Positions 4,050 to 12,646 of a stretch of DNA of 64,000 nt are shown here, piece after piece. The notes beneath the pieces were generated by a model. That model had not been told where the DNA came from. It saw only the letters and a program-made list of their open reading frames with translations, and ran no database searches. Where the stretch lies: positions 2,170,001-2,234,000 of the forward strand of contig NZ_CP041403.1 in the NCBI RefSeq assembly GCF_014844135.1, in the 5' to 3' direction. The position numbers and the translations under genes are program-made. The first letter of the stretch is position 1, and the number at the start of each line of letters is the position of its first letter. The stretch is from Arcobacter sp. FWKO B. Its GTDB lineage: Bacteria > Campylobacterota > Campylobacteria > Campylobacterales > Arcobacteraceae.

Positions 4050-5402
4050 ATGGCATCAGTGTTATGGTTTAGAAGAGATTTAAGGATAAATGATAATCCA
4101 CTTTTAAGTGAGTTTAGGCAAGATATAGTATTGCCAGTTTTTATTTTTGATACACAAATACTTAATAAATTGTCAAAGGATGACAAAAGAGTAAGTTTTA
4201 TTTTTTATTCTGTTATGAAGCTCAAAAATGATTTAAAAGCTATAGGGCTTGATTTAGCAATATTTTATGGTGAACCATTAGAAGTATTTGAAAAAATTTC
4301 ATCCATTTGTCATATAGATGAGATATTAGCATGTGGTGATAATGATTTTTATGCAAAATCAAGAGATGAAAAAATATCACAATCTTATAAATTAATATCT
4401 TTTAATGATGCATTTTTATTGCCAGCAAGCTATGGGCTTAAAAAAGATGGTACACCATATAGGGTATTTACTCCATTTTACAAATCAGTTTTACCTTTTG
4501 TAGAAATATTATCTCAAAATCAATACAAAATAAAAAGTGCTAAATTAGTAGATTTTGATTATAAATCAATTCAATTAGAATCTTTTGGTTTTGAAAAAGC
4601 TGATATATCACATATTCCATATATAGATAAACCAATGGAGCTTTTAAACGATTTCAAACCTTATTTTGATATGTACAAAGATTTGCGTGATGATATAAGC
4701 AAAAAGCCATATACTAGTGGGCTTGGTATTCATTTGAGATTTGGGACTATAGGGATAAGAGAGTGTATAAGGGAGCTTATTTTGTATCAAAAAGAGGGTA
4801 TTGATACAAGTGAATTTATAAGAGAGCTTATATGGCGAGAGTTTTGGAATATGCTTTTGATTCATTTTCCAAAGAGTGAGTTTGATAATTTTTATGCCGT
4901 AGATATAAAATGGGAAAATGACAAGGATAAATTTCACTCATGGTGCGAAGGAAAAACTGGAGTACCTATCATAGATGCAGCGATGAGAGAACTAAACGCT
5001 ACAGGATTTATGCACAATAGATTGCGAATGATAGTAAGCAGTTTTTTGACAAAAGATTTACTTATTGATTGGAGATGGGGAGAGCGGTATTTTGCTATGA
5101 AACTTCTTGATTATGAAGCAAGCTCCAATATAGGCTCATGGCAATGGGCAAGTAGCACAGGAGCTGATGGAGTACCGTATTTTAGAGTTTTTAATCCATA
5201 CTTACAAACCAAAAAGTTTGATAAAGATGGAGTATATATCAAACGATGGGTAAGCGAATACAAAGATATACCATCAGGTAAACTATATGATGAAAACTAT
5301 TTGCTTATGTACGGCGATAGTTTTTACAAAAAGCCAATAGTAGTACATAAAGTTGCTAGTGAAAGGTTTGTAAGAGCTTATAAAGATGGAATGATTAAAT
5401 AA
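4050..5402 (+). CDS. phrB: Deoxyribodipyrimidine photolyase
   Basis: A 450-residue cryptochrome/photolyase family protein. The start is placed at 4050 because TAGGAG lies 5 bases upstream and the N-terminus MASVLWFRRDLRINDNPLL is the canonical beginning of the antenna-chromophore domain; an in-frame ATG 30 bases earlier has no ribosome site. The FAD-binding domain (about 200-450) shows TSGLGIHLRFGTIGIRE, EFIRELIWREFWNM, GVPIIDAAMRELNATGFMHNR and the Trp-rich segments DWRWGERYF and GSWQWASSTG that supply the electron-transfer tryptophans and the lesion pocket. This pattern is that of class I CPD photolyases, which use blue light to split cyclobutane pyrimidine dimers in DNA. It is transcribed alone, divergently from sorA. 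Confidence 0.93.
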   Translation: MASVLWFRRDLRINDNPLLSEFRQDIVLPVFIFDTQILNKLSKDDKRVSFIFYSVMKLKNDLKAIGLDLAIFYGEPLEVFEKISSICHIDEILACGDNDFYAKSRDEKISQSYKLISFNDAFLLPASYGLKKDGTPYRVFTPFYKSVLPFVEILSQNQYKIKSAKLVDFDYKSIQLESFGFEKADISHIPYIDKPMELLNDFKPYFDMYKDLRDDISKKPYTSGLGIHLRFGTIGIRECIRELILYQKEGIDTSEFIRELIWREFWNMLLIHFPKSEFDNFYAVDIKWENDKDKFHSWCEGKTGVPIIDAAMRELNATGFMHNRLRMIVSSFLTKDLLIDWRWGERYFAMKLLDYEASSNIGSWQWASSTGADGVPYFRVFNPYLQTKKFDKDGVYIKRWVSEYKDIPSGKLYDENYLLMYGDSFYKKPIVVHKVASERFVRAYKDGMIK

Positions 5403-5449
5403 TATATATTATGATATAATGATTGATAAATTTATACTAGAGGCACTAG

Positions 5450-6367
5450 ATGAATGAAATCACAATTATAAATGACACTATCTCAAATAAAATATACACC
5501 ATAAGAGGTCTTCAAGTGATGCTTGATAGGGACTTAGCTGAGCTTTATCAAGTGGAAGCCAAAAGACTTAATGAACAAGTAAAAAGAAATATAGAGAGAT
5601 TTCCTCAAAGTTTCCGTTTTCAACTTACTCAAGATGAATATGAACACCTAATGTCAAAATTTGACACTTCAAGTTCAAAAGAATCTTTAAGGTCGCATTT
5701 TGCGACCTTAGAAAATAGGCGTGGAAAACATAGAAAATATTTGCCTTATGTATTTACAGAGCAAGGTGTTTCTATGCTTTCTGCGGTTTTGAGGAGTGAT
5801 ATTGCCATCAAAGTAAGTATTCAAATCATAGAAGCTTTTGTAAATATGAGAAAATTTATCTCAAATAACGCCATTGTATTTCAAAGACTTGAGTTACTTG
5901 AACAAAAACAATTTCAAACAGATACCAAAATAGAACAAATATTAAACGCCCTAGAAGATAAAACAACCAAACCAAAAGAAGGAATTTTTTACGATGGACA
6001 AATATATGATGCCTATGCATTTGTAAATGACCTACTAAAAAATACAAAAAATGATATAGTACTTATAGATAACTATATAGATGACACAGTTTTTACATTA
6101 TTTAGCAAATACTCAAAACTAAATATAATAATATATATACAAACTATAACTAAACAGTTAAAATTAGACTATCAAAAATATAAAGCTCAATATAATAATA
6201 TAGAGCTTGTAGAGTTTAAGAAATCCCATGATAGATTTTTAATCATTGACCAAAAAGAGATTTACCATATCGGAGCTAGTCTAAAAGACTTAGGAAAAAA
6301 ATGGTTCGCATTTTCCAAGTTTGAGATGAGTAGTTTGGAGATTTTGGAGAGGTTGCAGATTAAGTAA
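5450..6367 (+). CDS. ORF6N-domain DNA-binding protein with a PLD-like C-terminal domain
   Basis: A 305-residue protein. Residues about 14-130 match the ORF6N/KilA-N type DNA-binding domain of phage antirepressors and many bacterial accessory genes: IRGLQVMLDRDLAELYQVEAKRLNEQVKRN, then FTEQGVSMLSAVLRSDIAIKVSIQIIEAFVNMR. A short coiled segment (about 140-170) links to a C-terminal domain with H260-D-R262-x4-D267 (SHDRFLIID), a variant of the HxK(x4)D phospholipase-D motif with Arg in place of Lys, followed by GASLKDLGKKWFAF. Only one such motif is seen, so an active site would need dimerisation, or the fold may be non-catalytic. It opens an accessory segment of about 5.4 kb between phrB and fbp. 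Role unknown; regulation of phage genes or stress response are both possible. Confidence 0.8.
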   Translation: MNEITIINDTISNKIYTIRGLQVMLDRDLAELYQVEAKRLNEQVKRNIERFPQSFRFQLTQDEYEHLMSKFDTSSSKESLRSHFATLENRRGKHRKYLPYVFTEQGVSMLSAVLRSDIAIKVSIQIIEAFVNMRKFISNNAIVFQRLELLEQKQFQTDTKIEQILNALEDKTTKPKEGIFYDGQIYDAYAFVNDLLKNTKNDIVLIDNYIDDTVFTLFSKYSKLNIIIYIQTITKQLKLDYQKYKAQYNNIELVEFKKSHDRFLIIDQKEIYHIGASLKDLGKKWFAFSKFEMSSLEILERLQIK

Positions 6368-6427: not shown

Positions 6428-6573
6428 ATGTATATAGTAGGAATGGAAAACAATCTTTATAATCTTATATCAAACTTTTACAATAAAGCTACTGCCCTAA
6501 ACCATTTGAAAATGATGAAGAAAGACTTGAATACCTCTTTAAGATGTATGAAGATATGACAGCAAAAGCATGA
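6428..6573 (+). pseudogene. Frameshifted remnant of a short gene
   Basis: An ATG at 6428 with weak ribosome site TAGGGT opens a frame reading MYIVGMENNLYNLISNFYNKA. Near 6487-6500 the sensible reading shifts to another frame that gives CPKPFENDEERLEYLFKMYEDMTAKA and stops at 6573. Taken as one unbroken frame neither half makes a good protein, but together they look like the two ends of a degraded coding sequence. The final codons overlap the ATG of the giant nuclease-NTPase gene as ATGA, so the lost gene was probably translationally coupled to it. The family was not recognised. It could instead be a genuine 42-residue peptide in the first frame. Confidence 0.4.
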
Positions 6574-9500
6574 GCAAGTATCAATTTCTACCTTTAAAAG
6601 ATGAAAAAGAATTTGAATCTTTAGTTAATGATTTATGTGTAGAAAAGTATGGTATTGAATTTCAAGTTTATGGCAGAAAAGGTCAAAAACAAAATGGTAT
6701 AGATGGACTCTCTTTTTCTAAAGACGAAAAACAAATAGTTTATCAGTGTAAAAACAAAGATATTACTAGAGCTGATGCCAAAATCAAGACTGAACTTTTA
6801 GGTGATATTGAAACTGAAGTAAAGTCAGCTAGTGCTGAATTCCCAAGTATTAATACATTTATTTTCGCAAATTCATATAAGCAAGACACTACTTTACAAG
6901 ACAAAGCAACAGACTTAAAGAAACAATACGGATTTACAGTTATTGTATGGAGTTGGGAAGAGATTGAAGGTTTGCTTGAAAAACACTTAAATGTAGCAAA
7001 ACAATATTACCCAGAGATATTTGATAAAAATATATTATCAGAAAGTGATATTAAATATAAGTTTCAAGAAAATTCTGTGACATTGCTTTCTTCAATAAAT
7101 TCTTATATTGAAAAAAGTTTTATTGATATGCCAGAAATCAATCAAATTACTGATTTTATAAATAGTGAAAACTTTGATGATAGATTATTAGTTTTAACAG
7201 GTAAAGCAGGTATCGGTAAAACAGCGATATTAAGTAAAATTCAAAGTACTCTTCTAGACAATAACACAGTTCACTTAAGTATCAAAAGTGATCAGTTTGA
7301 AATAGAGAGTAAAGAGTCATTATCGAGTTTTTTTGGAGTAGACAATATTTTACTTTCTATAAAAAAGCTAGCAAGAAAAGAGAAAGTCATTGTCATAATA
7401 GACCAGCTTGATGCTTTATCTTTAACTATGTCATCAAATAAAAAAGTCATCAATATAATCTTAGAATTCATAGAACAGTTAAAATATATTTCAAATGTGA
7501 AAGTAATTGTTTCTATTAGAGAGTATGATTTAAAAAATGACCCTTTATTTAAAAGTTTAGATGACGCAAATATTATAAACACACAGCTATTAGATTTTGA
7601 ATATGTTAGTAATAAATTAAAATCTTATGTCAAAGAATCTGCAAAATTAAGTAGCACTTTGGTCGAGCTACTAAGAACACCTTTACATTTTTCAATTTTT
7701 ATAGAGCTTTACCCTAACGATAACAGTTGTATATCTATTAAAACTTTACAGGATTTATACAGTAAATTTTGGGAACAAAAAATTCAAGATAGAAGTTTAG
7801 ATAAAACTTTGAGACAAAATACTGTTGAATTGTTAAAGTCAATAGTTCATAGGATGAATGAATTAAATAAAATAGAGCTTCCTAAATTATATTTTGAAGA
7901 TGAATTTGAGGATGAAATTACTCTTTTATTAAGTAGAGGTATTTTAAAAGAAGAAAATAAAAAAATATCCTTTTTCCATCAAACTTTTTATGATTATGTA
8001 TTTGCAAGGGATTTTGCACAAAAAGATATATCTCTATACGAATATATATTAACAACTACTCAAGACTTAAACATAAGGGAACAGTTTAAACAGATTATAC
8101 AATTTTTAAGAGGAACAGATGAGGATAAATACTTATCTGAACTAAAAAATATACTCTATTCAGATGAAATAAGATTCCATATAAAACTGTTATTAATCTC
8201 TTATCTTGGAAGTATAGAAAGTCCTACTGTTGAAGAATTCACTTTTATTCAACAACTTTTTAAAGATAAGGCAGACTATGAAAAGTACTTTATTGAAAGC
8301 TGGATATCTTCTGACTGGCTTATATATTTAAAGGAAGCAGGATTTTTTAATACTGAAAATTTTCAAAAATATAACCTACAAAATAGATTAGAAACTTTTG
8401 TAAATAAAGAAACAGATTTGATATTTGACATATTAGATAATTGCAAATGTGAAGAGAAAATAAAAAATGTTTCAATAATCAATAGTTTAAATAGATTAAA
8501 TAACTGGAGTGACACAAGTTTTGAAATATTGAGAAAATATAATAGTTTATTATATGAAGGTGACATTCATTACTATGACTTGAAAAAACTTTATCAAAAA
8601 ATATATCATTTTGACGAAGAGTTTGCAAAAAACATGTTTTTTGATTTTGTAAATACACGAATTGATATAGTTGAAGATCATGATAAAAAAGAGTTACTAG
8701 ACCATGATTGGTATGAGATATTTGAATTTTTATTGGAACAAAAAGAGATAGATATATTACAAAGGCTTTTAGAATCAATCCAAAAAATCAGTAATAAGTT
8801 TAAAAACGAATACTCTAAAAAAGAATTTTTAATTACAGATAAAGTTTTTGATTCAATAATGTGGCAATTTGATGATTTACATAATAGTTCCTGGGGACTC
8901 TATAAAAAAACACTAAAAAAAATTTCTCAGTTAGCTGTAGATGATAAAGACATCTTTTTAGAACTTGTAGAACCCTATCAAAATACTCATTATCTTTCAC
9001 TGATTACATTTTTAATATTTGGATACTCTAAAGATCACAAAGAATATAAAAATGAAATATTGAGCTTATTTACAAATGTAAAGCTTTTGGAAGAGTTGTC
9101 ATTTAGTCATGATGATGGATATGAGTTTGCAATGCTATTAAATAAATCATTTCAATTATTTGATGAAACGGAACAAGAACAAATTTTTAACTCTATAGTC
9201 CAAGTAAATCCGCAATGGCAAGATACTTATTATGTAGGCAAATGTCATGGAACATATAAAGGGTTACAAAAATATGAATTGTTATCTCAACTAGAGATAA
9301 ATGATATAAAAAAATTCGGTTATTTTAAAGAGTTTCAAGAACTACAAAGAAAATTCCCTTGGTATAAGTTTAAAAAACCTCATAAATCAAATGGTGGTTT
9401 TGTTGGGACACCATTAAGTAGTGATGTTTACTCAAAAATGAGTTTGAGTAATTTGCTTCAATCAATGAAGGTATTTGATGGTACCAAATCAAGAAATAGT

Positions 9501-10847
9501 ACAAACAGTTTTTTAAGAGGTAGTAAAACTGAACATCATAGGCAATTTGAAAAAGAAGTGACGGAAAATCCAGATAAGTTTTTTGATTTTTTATTACAGT
9601 TGAAATCTGAAAATATTCATCCAGATTATTTATCTGCTGGATTAAGCGGACTTATAGCATCAAATTATAACGAAGAAAAAGTATTACAAATAATTCATTT
9701 GTATTCAGATATTGATGATAAATGGTTAAAACGAACTATACTCAAAGCTATAGAATATTTGATTAGTAAAAATAAATTTGATGTGAGTTTATTAGATATT
9801 TTAGAATCTAATAAAGATATAAAATATGAAGGTTTAGTGAGGGATGCAACTAAGTTTCAAACTATACATGACCACATGTCTAGTTCAATAAATTCTTTTG
9901 AAGGCGATTTTGCAGAATTATTACCTTTAATTTATAAATATGTATTTGAAAATGAAAATGCAAAAAAAAGAGTTTTAAATCTTATTGATGAAGTTATTGA
10001 AAAAAATATTGACTTTGTAATATTTGGGTTACTAAGAACAATGGGTAAGATCGAACCTGTTGATAAATCCTTATTTGCAAAGCTCTTGGTTGATTTAATT
10101 GAAAAAGATGAAATAGGACAAGTTGCAATTTATTCTTTACAAAATTTTCATTATCTATATATGAATGAGTTTGTTTCTAAAGAAGAAGTGGTAGTTTATA
10201 TCAGAAAATGTATATATTTTGCAAAAGTTCTAAAAGATAGAGAGGATTCAAGTTACATAAATAATTTGGGAATGTATTTATATTTTTACTACTTAAATGA
10301 AGATGATGAGATTTTCGAGAAACTACTTAACGAAGCAATAGATTCAAACCTCCAAGTTATTCATGGGGTGTTACGTCAAATTTTTGAACAAGAAATACAT
10401 TCAAAAGACAAAGGAAAAGTTGAAAAATCAAAACAGTTTATTCTAAGATTTAAAAACCATGAAGAAAATGACTATTTTTATACATTAGATTTAGTCAAAA
10501 TGAATGGATTAAACTTTATTCAAGATGATTTTGAATTTGTAAAAAGTTTAGCATCGTCTATTCATATAAAGAAAGATGTAAAAAGTTTCATTGAGTATCT
10601 TCAAAATGAATATCTTGCAGATACAAATATTGCTGAAAAAATATTTGAACTTTTGGAAGAGCTTATACAAAAAATAGATTCTTCAAAAGAGACTGGATAT
10701 TATGATTCAAGACCATTAATTGAGTTTATTTTAGAACTTAACACAAGAACTAAATCTGATGAACAAAAAGTAAAGATTTTAGATTTAATTGATAGGTTTT
10801 TAATAAGTGACATACTTAGATTTAGTACTAAATCAGCGATAGATTAA
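6570..10847 (+). CDS. Mrr-like nuclease fused to a STAND/P-loop NTPase; candidate Avs-like defence protein
   Basis: A 1425-residue cytoplasmic protein without signal peptide or membrane segment. Residues 1-150 form a PD-(D/E)xK nuclease domain: Glu16 in EKEFESLVNDL, the GRKGQKQNGID signature ending at Asp45, and the Q59-C-K61 catalytic strand, as in Mrr-type restriction endonucleases. Residues about 190-430 form a P-loop NTPase: Walker A GKAGIGKT at 211-218, Walker B VIIDQLDAL with Asp278, and VSIREYDLKND as a sensor-like strand. The remaining 1000 residues are rich in helix-forming, Asn/Lys/Glu-rich sequence like an array of helical repeats. This three-part plan (effector, switch NTPase, long sensor) is that of STAND defence proteins; Avs4 proteins also pair an Mrr-like nuclease with such an NTPase. 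Membership in Avs4 is inferred, not shown. It is translationally coupled by ATGA to a broken upstream frame and flanked by housekeeping genes. Confidence 0.75.
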   Translation: MSKYQFLPLKDEKEFESLVNDLCVEKYGIEFQVYGRKGQKQNGIDGLSFSKDEKQIVYQCKNKDITRADAKIKTELLGDIETEVKSASAEFPSINTFIFANSYKQDTTLQDKATDLKKQYGFTVIVWSWEEIEGLLEKHLNVAKQYYPEIFDKNILSESDIKYKFQENSVTLLSSINSYIEKSFIDMPEINQITDFINSENFDDRLLVLTGKAGIGKTAILSKIQSTLLDNNTVHLSIKSDQFEIESKESLSSFFGVDNILLSIKKLARKEKVIVIIDQLDALSLTMSSNKKVINIILEFIEQLKYISNVKVIVSIREYDLKNDPLFKSLDDANIINTQLLDFEYVSNKLKSYVKESAKLSSTLVELLRTPLHFSIFIELYPNDNSCISIKTLQDLYSKFWEQKIQDRSLDKTLRQNTVELLKSIVHRMNELNKIELPKLYFEDEFEDEITLLLSRGILKEENKKISFFHQTFYDYVFARDFAQKDISLYEYILTTTQDLNIREQFKQIIQFLRGTDEDKYLSELKNILYSDEIRFHIKLLLISYLGSIESPTVEEFTFIQQLFKDKADYEKYFIESWISSDWLIYLKEAGFFNTENFQKYNLQNRLETFVNKETDLIFDILDNCKCEEKIKNVSIINSLNRLNNWSDTSFEILRKYNSLLYEGDIHYYDLKKLYQKIYHFDEEFAKNMFFDFVNTRIDIVEDHDKKELLDHDWYEIFEFLLEQKEIDILQRLLESIQKISNKFKNEYSKKEFLITDKVFDSIMWQFDDLHNSSWGLYKKTLKKISQLAVDDKDIFLELVEPYQNTHYLSLITFLIFGYSKDHKEYKNEILSLFTNVKLLEELSFSHDDGYEFAMLLNKSFQLFDETEQEQIFNSIVQVNPQWQDTYYVGKCHGTYKGLQKYELLSQLEINDIKKFGYFKEFQELQRKFPWYKFKKPHKSNGGFVGTPLSSDVYSKMSLSNLLQSMKVFDGTKSRNSTNSFLRGSKTEHHRQFEKEVTENPDKFFDFLLQLKSENIHPDYLSAGLSGLIASNYNEEKVLQIIHLYSDIDDKWLKRTILKAIEYLISKNKFDVSLLDILESNKDIKYEGLVRDATKFQTIHDHMSSSINSFEGDFAELLPLIYKYVFENENAKKRVLNLIDEVIEKNIDFVIFGLLRTMGKIEPVDKSLFAKLLVDLIEKDEIGQVAIYSLQNFHYLYMNEFVSKEEVVVYIRKCIYFAKVLKDREDSSYINNLGMYLYFYYLNEDDEIFEKLLNEAIDSNLQVIHGVLRQIFEQEIHSKDKGKVEKSKQFILRFKNHEENDYFYTLDLVKMNGLNFIQDDFEFVKSLASSIHIKKDVKSFIEYLQNEYLADTNIAEKIFELLEELIQKIDSSKETGYYDSRPLIEFILELNTRTKSDEQKVKILDLIDRFLISDILRFSTKSAID

Positions 10848-10864
10848 GATTCTATACAGAATCT
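10847..10864 (+). terminator. Weak hairpin after the nuclease-NTPase gene
   Basis: A 7-bp perfect stem (AGATTCT / AGAATCT) with a 4-base loop begins at the stop codon of the giant gene. It is followed by AAAATAAT rather than a run of T, so it is a poor intrinsic terminator. Confidence 0.35.
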
Positions 10865-10891
10865 AAAATAATCCCAAAAGCAAAATTAAGA

Positions 10892-10897
10892 TATAAT
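10892..10897 (+). promoter_or_regulatory. -10 element before the FBPase-like gene
   Basis: TATAAT in the context AAGATATAATTATCC, 46 bases before the ATG of the FBPase-like gene. It suggests that the fbp-like/DUF89 pair is transcribed separately from the giant upstream gene. Confidence 0.5.
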
Positions 10898-10942
10898 TAT
10901 CCAATAATAGAAGTCCAAAATGGTAAATTAGTGGAGTAGGGT

Positions 10943-11788
10943 ATGATAGAAATTTTTAATGCAGTATCAAATATAGCTGTAGATATAGAAAAAGATATTT
11001 TCAATGGCTTAAGTGATGAGTTTTTTGATGTTAAGATAGAAGATGATGAGCTTCACTCAAAAATATATACTAAATGTACACAGATTATTGAAACAGAGCT
11101 TGAGAAAGTTCGTAGTGTCAAAGGTGCTTTAAGTAAAGACAAAAAACAAATGTGTACTATCAATCCAAATGGTAAATATATAGTTGCTTATGTGAGTATT
11201 GATAATGTTGAGTTGTTGGATGTGGATTATTCTTTGGGGACTATTTTTTGTGTGTATGAAAATGAGATTTCACCAAAAAACATAAAAGCAAGTGCATATA
11301 TCACATATGGACCAACATTTCAAATGGTTTTTGCTACACAAAGCGAAGGTGTGAAGTTTTTTTCTTATGAAGATAGTCAATTTGTACAAAAAGAGTCTTT
11401 TAGACTAAGTTCTAGTGGCAAGATAAACTCTACTGGTGGTGATATAGCAGCGTGGACATCTGAACACAAAGATTTGATGCAAAGTTTTTTTGATAGTGGC
11501 TATAGACTTAGATTTAGTGACTCTTTAGTGCTTGATACTCATCAAATACTTTTTAAAAGAGGTGGTATATACTCAAACCCAGCAACAAAAAATGACCCAA
11601 ATGGAACAATGGAGTTAGTTTTTGAGTGTTATCCTATTAGTTTCATAGTAGAGCTTGCTGGTGGTATGGCAATAGATGGAAAATATAGAATACTAGATAT
11701 TGAGTCTTTAAATGTTCATCATAAATCACCATTTTATTTTGGTTCAACTAATGAAATACAAAAAGTAAAATTAGTATTTGGGGCATAA
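10943..11788 (+). CDS. Class 1 fructose-1,6-bisphosphatase family protein with degenerate metal site
   Basis: A 281-residue protein of the usual length for campylobacterial FBPases. Much of the C-terminal half is conserved: GKINSTGGDIAAW, YRLRFSDSLVLDTHQIL, GGIYSNPATKNDPNG and FECYPISFIVELAGG, which hold substrate-binding residues and one metal ligand Glu. The N-terminal metal centre is not: the near-invariant DPLDGSS of the family is replaced by SIDNVEL (just before DVDYSLGTIF), and the preceding acidic SEE-type segment reads SKDKKQ. Those residues bind the catalytic Mg ions in characterised FBPases, so normal phosphatase activity is doubtful. It starts after a good ribosome site (GGAGTAGGG) and is abutted, with no gap, by a DUF89 phosphatase gene. 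Either a non-catalytic FBPase-fold regulator or an enzyme with altered chemistry. Confidence 0.75.
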   Translation: MIEIFNAVSNIAVDIEKDIFNGLSDEFFDVKIEDDELHSKIYTKCTQIIETELEKVRSVKGALSKDKKQMCTINPNGKYIVAYVSIDNVELLDVDYSLGTIFCVYENEISPKNIKASAYITYGPTFQMVFATQSEGVKFFSYEDSQFVQKESFRLSSSGKINSTGGDIAAWTSEHKDLMQSFFDSGYRLRFSDSLVLDTHQILFKRGGIYSNPATKNDPNGTMELVFECYPISFIVELAGGMAIDGKYRILDIESLNVHHKSPFYFGSTNEIQKVKLVFGA

Positions 11789-12646
11789 GTGAATATTCAA
11801 AGTGATTGTGTAGGGTGCATTGTAGGACAAATTGATAAGGCACTAGATTTGCTAGAAGTTGAGGCAAACTTAGCACAAGAGATAAGAGCAGAGGTAAAAA
11901 AACGCTCACTTAGCTTTAGCTACTCTCATACACCACCTTTTATAGCAAAAGATGTATATGCTTATTTGGGTGATAGGCTAGGGCTTGATGATCCTTTGGA
12001 AAGTATCAAACAACAAAGTATCCAAAAAGCCACAGAACTTTTACCTTTTATTTATAAAAAACTACTTTTAAGCGATGATAAGCTTTTTACTGCAATAAAA
12101 GCAAGTGTAGCTGGAAATGTGATAGATTTTGGTGCAAAAGAGCAGTTTTGTGTGACCAATGAAGTACAAAATATATTTGATACAGATTTTGCAATCAATG
12201 ACTACGAAAAACTAAAAATACAAATAAAAAATACCGATAAAATACTAGTACTTGCTGATAATAGTGGGGAAAATGTTTTTGATAAGGTTTTATTAAAAAC
12301 TATAAAAGAGTTATACCCTTCAAAGGAGCTTTTTTATGCAACTAGAGGAAAACCTATAATCAATGATATTACCACAAAAGAAGCATATCAAATAGGTATC
12401 GATGAGGTCGCTACTATATTAGATAGTGGAGTGGATACTCCTGGACTTGACCTTAGTCGTGCAAGTAATGAATTTAAAGCTTTTTTTGATGATGTACCTT
12501 TGATTATATCCAAAGGTATGGGAAACTATGAGTGTTTGGAACAATTAAAAGATGATAGAATATTTTTCTTGTTTAAAGTAAAATGTAGTGTTGTAGCTTC
12601 AAGTATCCAAAAAAATGTAGGTGATATAGTTTTACTAAGAAACTAA
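11789..12646 (+). CDS. DUF89/ARMT1-like metal-dependent phosphatase
   Basis: A 285-residue DUF89 (PF01937) protein of the short AF1104-like group. An N-terminal CVGC motif (Cys8, Cys11 region) matches the CxxC subgroup; the metal and substrate site shows LADNSGENVFDKVLL, TRGKPIINDIT and ISKGMGNYECL. Characterised DUF89 proteins are metal-dependent damage-control phosphatases that remove phosphate from sugar phosphates or damaged pantetheine intermediates. The GTG start begins at the base after the fbp-like stop, with only a weak GGGG upstream, so translation is likely coupled to that gene. Co-translation with an FBPase homologue suggests a sugar-phosphate substrate; this is inference. It ends convergently, overlapping a small minus-strand gene by 4 bases. 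Confidence 0.8.
   Translation: MNIQSDCVGCIVGQIDKALDLLEVEANLAQEIRAEVKKRSLSFSYSHTPPFIAKDVYAYLGDRLGLDDPLESIKQQSIQKATELLPFIYKKLLLSDDKLFTAIKASVAGNVIDFGAKEQFCVTNEVQNIFDTDFAINDYEKLKIQIKNTDKILVLADNSGENVFDKVLLKTIKELYPSKELFYATRGKPIINDITTKEAYQIGIDEVATILDSGVDTPGLDLSRASNEFKAFFDDVPLIISKGMGNYECLEQLKDDRIFFLFKVKCSVVASSIQKNVGDIVLLRN

Follow-up and report, generated by a model that had tools for sequence, protein, structure and literature searches.

Class 1 fructose-1,6-bisphosphatases (FBPases), such as E. coli Fbp and the pig and human enzymes FBP1 and FBP2 (Pfam families PF00316 and PF18913), are tetramers, and when phosphofructokinase (PFK) and FBPase run together ATP is burned. To our knowledge, there is still no settled account of how a lineage that lives by gluconeogenesis takes up glycolysis. 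The sedoheptulose-1,7-bisphosphatases (SBPases) of plants and algae need the same metal ligands as FBPases. According to a study of human muscle FBPase, the ligands of metal M1 are Asp118, Asp121 and Glu280, those of M2 are Glu97, Asp118 and the carbonyl of Leu120, Glu97 also serves M3, and metaphosphate binds to the main chain at Gly122 and Ser123 (PMC3785478). Work on yeast FBPase reports that alanine mutants at the positions equivalent to Asp68, Glu98, Asp121 and Ser123 had all lost the overexpressed activity (PMC5349122), and a structure legend in a further source mentions arginines contributed by adjacent FBPase chains (PMC5639204).

Pseudoenzymes that regulate their catalytic paralogs are a known kind of protein. 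Arabidopsis PDX1.2 is described as a non-catalytic paralog that regulates vitamin B6 biosynthesis (PMC6829848). The protein described below resembles PDX1.2 in being a conserved pseudoenzyme that stands beside catalytic paralogs, but PDX1.2 is a plant protein and belongs to the vitamin B6 pathway. PDX1.2 reportedly assembles with its catalytic paralogs, and its fold is said to differ from that of FBPase. An inactive bacterial FBPase paralog with a tie to PFK appears to be new; a search of the open literature by titles and the beginnings of abstracts, a scope outside which most subscription journals lie, turned up no paper that describes an inactive FBPase paralog in bacteria.

The window, a stretch of 64,000 nucleotides from Arcobacter sp. 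FWKO B, contains a gene at 10943..11788 on the forward strand that begins with ATG and encodes 281 residues, with the coordinates and strand given in the list of open reading frames. An earlier note on this DNA had called the product an FBPase homologue, and both the call and its coordinates proved exact: the protein scores 112.5 bits for FBPase_C PF18913 (cut-off 27) and 39.5 bits for the FBPase N-terminal domain PF00316 (cut-off 34.8). Its best NCBIfam class 1 FBPase match, NF006784, is full length at 264.6 bits and lies below the family cut-off of 395. The AlphaFold2 model (mean pLDDT 91.2, pTM 0.91) adopts the fold of FBPases from end to end, with Z of about 35 over most of the chain against solved FBPases, including E. 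coli FBPase 2owz at Z 34.8, rmsd 1.7 A and 265 residues (VIA-align). The SBPases 7b2o, 7zuv and 5iz3 share this fold and tie with the FBPases at Z 34.8, a likeness of fold alone. Chance, a frame error or a mis-called reading frame are ruled out by 26 full-length relatives that share the changes in three families. The product is an FBPase-fold paralog that has lost the metal site.

The active site was compared by aligning 26 distinct paralogs with E. coli Fbp and with 14 canonical FBPases of carrier genomes; the window protein was also aligned with the canonical FBPases of the order and with the second FBPase of its own genome. Residue numbers are what we take to be those of the pig enzyme, assigned to alignment columns through the E. 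coli sequence. The earlier note had held that the near-invariant DPLDGSS motif was lost and replaced by SIDNVEL. The loss stands, but the register was one residue off, as it is VSIDNVE (residues 84-90; 11192..11212, forward strand) that aligns with the motif. Here Asp118 has become Val84 and GSS has become NVE (Gly122 to Asn, Ser123 to Val and Ser124 to Glu), while the fourth residue of the motif, Asp121, is retained as Asp87, a ligand kept in 26/26 paralogs. The upstream acidic ligands are replaced, as the same reading had it, in SKDKKQ (residues 64-69; 11132..11149, forward strand), which occupies the place of the canonical SEE(K/E) block and has Lys65 for Glu97 and Asp66 for Glu98. Asp74 is replaced by Tyr42.

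These losses are shared by the whole set of paralogs. None of the 26 has Asp at position 74 (His, Tyr, Arg, Asn or Phe instead), Glu at position 97 or Asp at position 118, where 23 have Val and one each has Ile, Leu and Asn. At position 122, 25 paralogs have Asn and one has Ser, position 123 is changed in every case to a hydrophobic residue or Pro, and position 124 carries either Asp (17 paralogs) or Glu (9), which gives an acidic 1-phosphate loop. Glu280 is kept in 25/26. As for the thought that an alignment might yet find the metal ligands conserved at shifted positions, it recovered Asp121 and Glu280 but not Asp74, Glu97 or Asp118. The 14 canonical FBPases of carrier genomes keep all of these residues and those of the substrate-binding blocks described below, except that Arg243 is present in 13/14 and Asp68 is Glu in two.

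The C-terminal substrate-binding blocks, once thought to be retained, are so only in part. Arg190 (11510..11512, forward strand), the equivalent of Arg243, is kept in 26/26 paralogs; in FBPases this is presumably the trans-arginine that enters the active site of the neighbouring subunit. Tyr264, which we take to be a residue of the 6-phosphate site, is however gone from all 26 (21 have Ser, four have Asn and one has Thr) and is Asn212 in the window protein (11576..11578, forward strand). Arg276 has mostly become Glu, as in Glu224 of the window protein, which lies close to the kept Glu228, the equivalent of Glu280 (11612..11626, forward strand). At position 274 the window protein has Thr, and 15/26 paralogs have Lys. 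From the loss of these ligands, set against the published metal-binding (PMC3785478, PMC5639204) and yeast mutant data (PMC5349122), we strongly infer that the site is dead, that it should be unable to hold the catalytic metal cluster and that the paralog has no FBPase activity. With Asp121 and Glu280, two of the metal-1 ligands, in place, binding of one metal is still conceivable, and so is an activity of another kind. The conserved Arg243 equivalent may be structural.

It had been anticipated that an organism with such a protein would need a second FBPase, and one is present: a class 1 FBPase with intact ligands is encoded at G000:C1:176972-177790 in the window's genome, which is a single contig of 2.24 Mb. 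An ordinary FBPase with intact ligands was found in 14/14 carrier genomes checked. The alternative enzyme GlpX is ruled out as the true FBPase of the carriers, as glpX had no match in any of the same 14 genomes (0/14). In genus g57 of family f13 (G086, G099 and G227, for example) the genomes have single-copy FBPases whose profile scores (E about 1e-41 to 1e-52) fall far below those elsewhere in the order.

With the window protein as query, 12 of 398 genomes sampled from the order scored at least 317 bits and the rest at most 225. A profile of 14 paralogs separated the 104 genomes of the window's family equally well (23 genomes at 462 bits or more, the rest at 253 or less), and in a sample of 397 genomes from the phylum eight stood at 481 bits or more, with the other matches listed at 273 or less. 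All of the phylum-sample matches listed came from the same order, and no carrier outside the order was among them. The samples hold one genome per species and several genomes are incomplete (G438 at 61%), which makes absences soft. The 26 distinct paralogs with shared ligand losses come from genomes of three families; G398 and G454, and likewise G399 and G456, look like identical genomes under two handles and were each counted once. In a tree of 54 sequences the 26 paralogs lie on one side of a branch with support 100/99 and a stem of 1.31 changes per site, and they form one clade with a single origin. One paralog from family f6 (G367) falls among the paralogs of f1, and others occur in families f11 and f6, a pattern that suggests transfer of the gene between bacterial families. 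There were 221 plasmid records with matches to the paralog, all below 60% identity and about 30% in the best rows, which denotes similarity only.

The paralog evolves under purifying selection. For the window protein, dN/dS is 0.062 and 0.068 against its two nearest relatives and 0.136 against a third congener (Nei-Gojobori; rough values, with synonymous sites near saturation), and the canonical FBPase of the same genome gives 0.056 and 0.032 against two of these congeners. Across 13 distinct pairs tested the paralog ranges from 0.04 to 0.15. The frame is full length and open in all 26 carriers, a stop flagged in G436 being the end of its 278-residue frame. Loss of catalytic residues that is itself conserved under purifying selection lends good support to one of the roles first proposed for the protein, that of a pseudo-enzyme.

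Carriage of the paralog goes together with PFK (PF00365). This gene is present in 181/398 genomes of the order and in 12/12 paralog carriers of that sample. In the window's family it is found in 34/104 genomes, 23 with the paralog and 11 without, so that PFK does not require the paralog; all 23 carriers have PFK, and 0/70 genomes lacking PFK carry the paralog (Fisher 4e-15, relatedness ignored). One of the 11 genomes with PFK only, G416, has a degenerate PFK match with internal stops, and the Fisher result is equally strong without it. Within four mixed genera, 19 genomes have both genes, two have PFK only and nine have neither, and when carriage of the paralog is shuffled among the genomes of each genus, p is 2.2e-4. 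The two genes are also linked: PFK lies on the same contig and at most 24 kb from the paralog in 19/23 family carriers, and in 7/23 the two matches are 132-217 bases apart. At four loci (L003, L004, L039 and L040) PFK stands immediately upstream of the paralog and shares its strand, and at L003 and L004, with one PFK match per genome, it ends 3 bases before the paralog starts. A PFK tree, which covers the part of the PFK matches extracted as loci, places all 20 main carrier PFKs sampled in one clade (90/97) together with those of three non-carriers (G422, G423 and G024), while 6/8 PFKs from the family's sampled PFK-only genomes fall outside it. As the PFKs of carriers belong mostly to this one clade, the paralog and PFK have travelled together, and their co-occurrence could in part reflect co-transfer. 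In three genomes (G216, G431 and G426; loci L048, L127 and L128) there is an additional PFK copy, and these copies sit on a very long branch away from every other PFK in the tree; they are possibly another PFK type.

The window itself has lost the PFK gene from this position. At L003, which like L004 appears to come from a genome of the window's genus, the order is photolyase, PFK, paralog and a DUF89 gene, and in the window it is photolyase, an ORF6N gene, a gene for a 1425-residue nSTAND protein, paralog and DUF89 (photolyase assigned by eye in both). L003 5986-7692 aligns with window 10928-12634, and as the L003 PFK gene spans 5041-5997, what remains of it in the window is its last four codons, the 12 bases TTA GTG GAG TAG (10928..10939, forward strand) directly before the paralog start. 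The former PFK upstream region persists at 10847..10914 on the forward strand (blastn to L003 4962-5027, 84% identity) and is now the upstream region of the paralog. The only PFK match in the window's genome lies 383 kb away around the circle (circularity assumed) in a cluster of glycolysis and glycogen genes and is 66% identical to the L003 PFK. The paralog has outlived the deletion of the adjacent PFK, and another PFK serves the genome; its retention favours a pathway-level role over a tie to one particular PFK protein.

Two further genes lie upstream. The product of 6570-10847 is an nSTAND/NACHT/AAA-like NTPase of 1425 residues (PF20720 25.8 bits, PADLOC PDC-M54A 49.7 bits), a candidate defence gene that occupies the place of the PFK upstream region of L003; it is ruled out as a component of the system, being absent at that site in L003 and L004. 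The ORF6N-domain protein at 5450-6367 scores 398 bits for PDC-S05, a PADLOC candidate family. It has a relative ahead of PFK in L004, and what matches in L003 is a short 3' remnant.

The reading that we favour, at a probability of roughly 55%, is that a class 1 FBPase was duplicated, that one copy lost its catalytic metal site, and that this copy became a non-catalytic regulator of the step between fructose-6-phosphate and fructose-1,6-bisphosphate in those Campylobacterota that also carry an ATP-type PFK. How it would act is a guess, offered tentatively and more doubtful than credible: the paralog may join the oligomer of the ordinary FBPase, presumably a tetramer, with its arginine reaching into the neighbour's site, and the mixed oligomer would lower or gate FBPase activity while PFK runs, which would prevent a futile, ATP-burning cycle. 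An Arg243 kept in every paralog beside a dead site of its own is what one would look for in a subunit that helps or disables its neighbour, and a role needed only where PFK is present fits the prevention of a futile cycle. A fuller version, rather unlikely to hold in all its parts, is that the pseudo-FBPase spread with PFK between families as a safety catch, silencing FBPase by co-assembly and so letting a gluconeogenic lineage gain PFK without the futile cycle.

The paralog might instead regulate glycolysis without touching FBPase, by binding PFK or a glycogen enzyme or by sensing a sugar phosphate, which we consider unlikely. Binding to PFK itself is our second choice of mechanism after co-assembly with FBPase, with a similarly low chance, and finds its evidence in the four loci where PFK lies directly upstream on the same strand. 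The window speaks against it, having lost that neighbour and kept no specific partner. Glycogen enzymes come into question because 6/12 order-sample carriers have the paralog beside glycogen-type genes (GH57 branching enzyme, DUF4912, phosphoglucomutase, phosphorylase, glycogen synthase). Glycogen synthase is found in 16/23 family carriers, and the seven that lack it are exactly the seven with PFK as neighbour; as the main correlate of the paralog, glycogen synthesis is weaker than PFK. The role of sugar-phosphate sensor, which had been suggested earlier, draws no support from the site itself, with Ser124 changed to Asp or Glu in 26/26 and Tyr264 lost, and these changes in the 1-phosphate loop and at Tyr264 make it less likely that a ligand is sensed at the original site.

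That the paralog is an active phosphatase whose site has been remodelled, to act on another sugar phosphate, to work with one metal on Asp87 and Glu228 or to use Lys65 and Glu224 in place of metals, appears improbable. This reading could draw on the kept equivalents of Asp121 and Glu280, on the strong purifying selection and on the regularity of the replacements, as position 97 is Lys in 23/26 paralogs (Gln in 2, Arg in one) and position 276 is Glu in 21/26 (Asn in 2, Asp in 2, Phe in one). Asp118, the bridge between metals 1 and 2, and Asp74 of the water site are nevertheless missing from all 26, and position 98, whose Glu also belongs to the water site, varies (Asp in 16, Gln in 4, Tyr in 3, others in 3 with one Glu among them), unlike a catalytic residue. 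It is very improbable that the paralog lacks a function of its own, whether as a duplicate in decay or as a passenger carried along by PFK and glycogen genes: the single PFK lineage shared by carriers is consistent with co-transfer, and some genomes in carrier genera lack both genes, but the frame is intact in every carrier, dN/dS is low throughout, and the gene was kept after the adjacent PFK was deleted.

Hardly any credence goes to a metabolite-repair pair with the ARMT1-like (DUF89) damage-control phosphatase encoded at 11789..12646 on the forward strand (PF01937, 203.3 bits), which starts directly after the paralog stop and is also next to the paralog in L003 and L004 but in none of the other 11 of 14 neighbourhoods read, and which occurs in 230/398 genomes of the order, many without the paralog; the phosphatase is thus probably not a functional partner, and the partnership was dropped as the main clue. 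The DUF89 protein carries an N-terminal CxxC (CVGC).

Annotation by homology is likely to name the paralog a class 1 fructose-bisphosphatase, and metabolic models would be misled by it. A conserved FBPase copy, catalytically broken and paired with PFK in all carriers seen, suggests a regulator of the central switch between glycolysis and gluconeogenesis.
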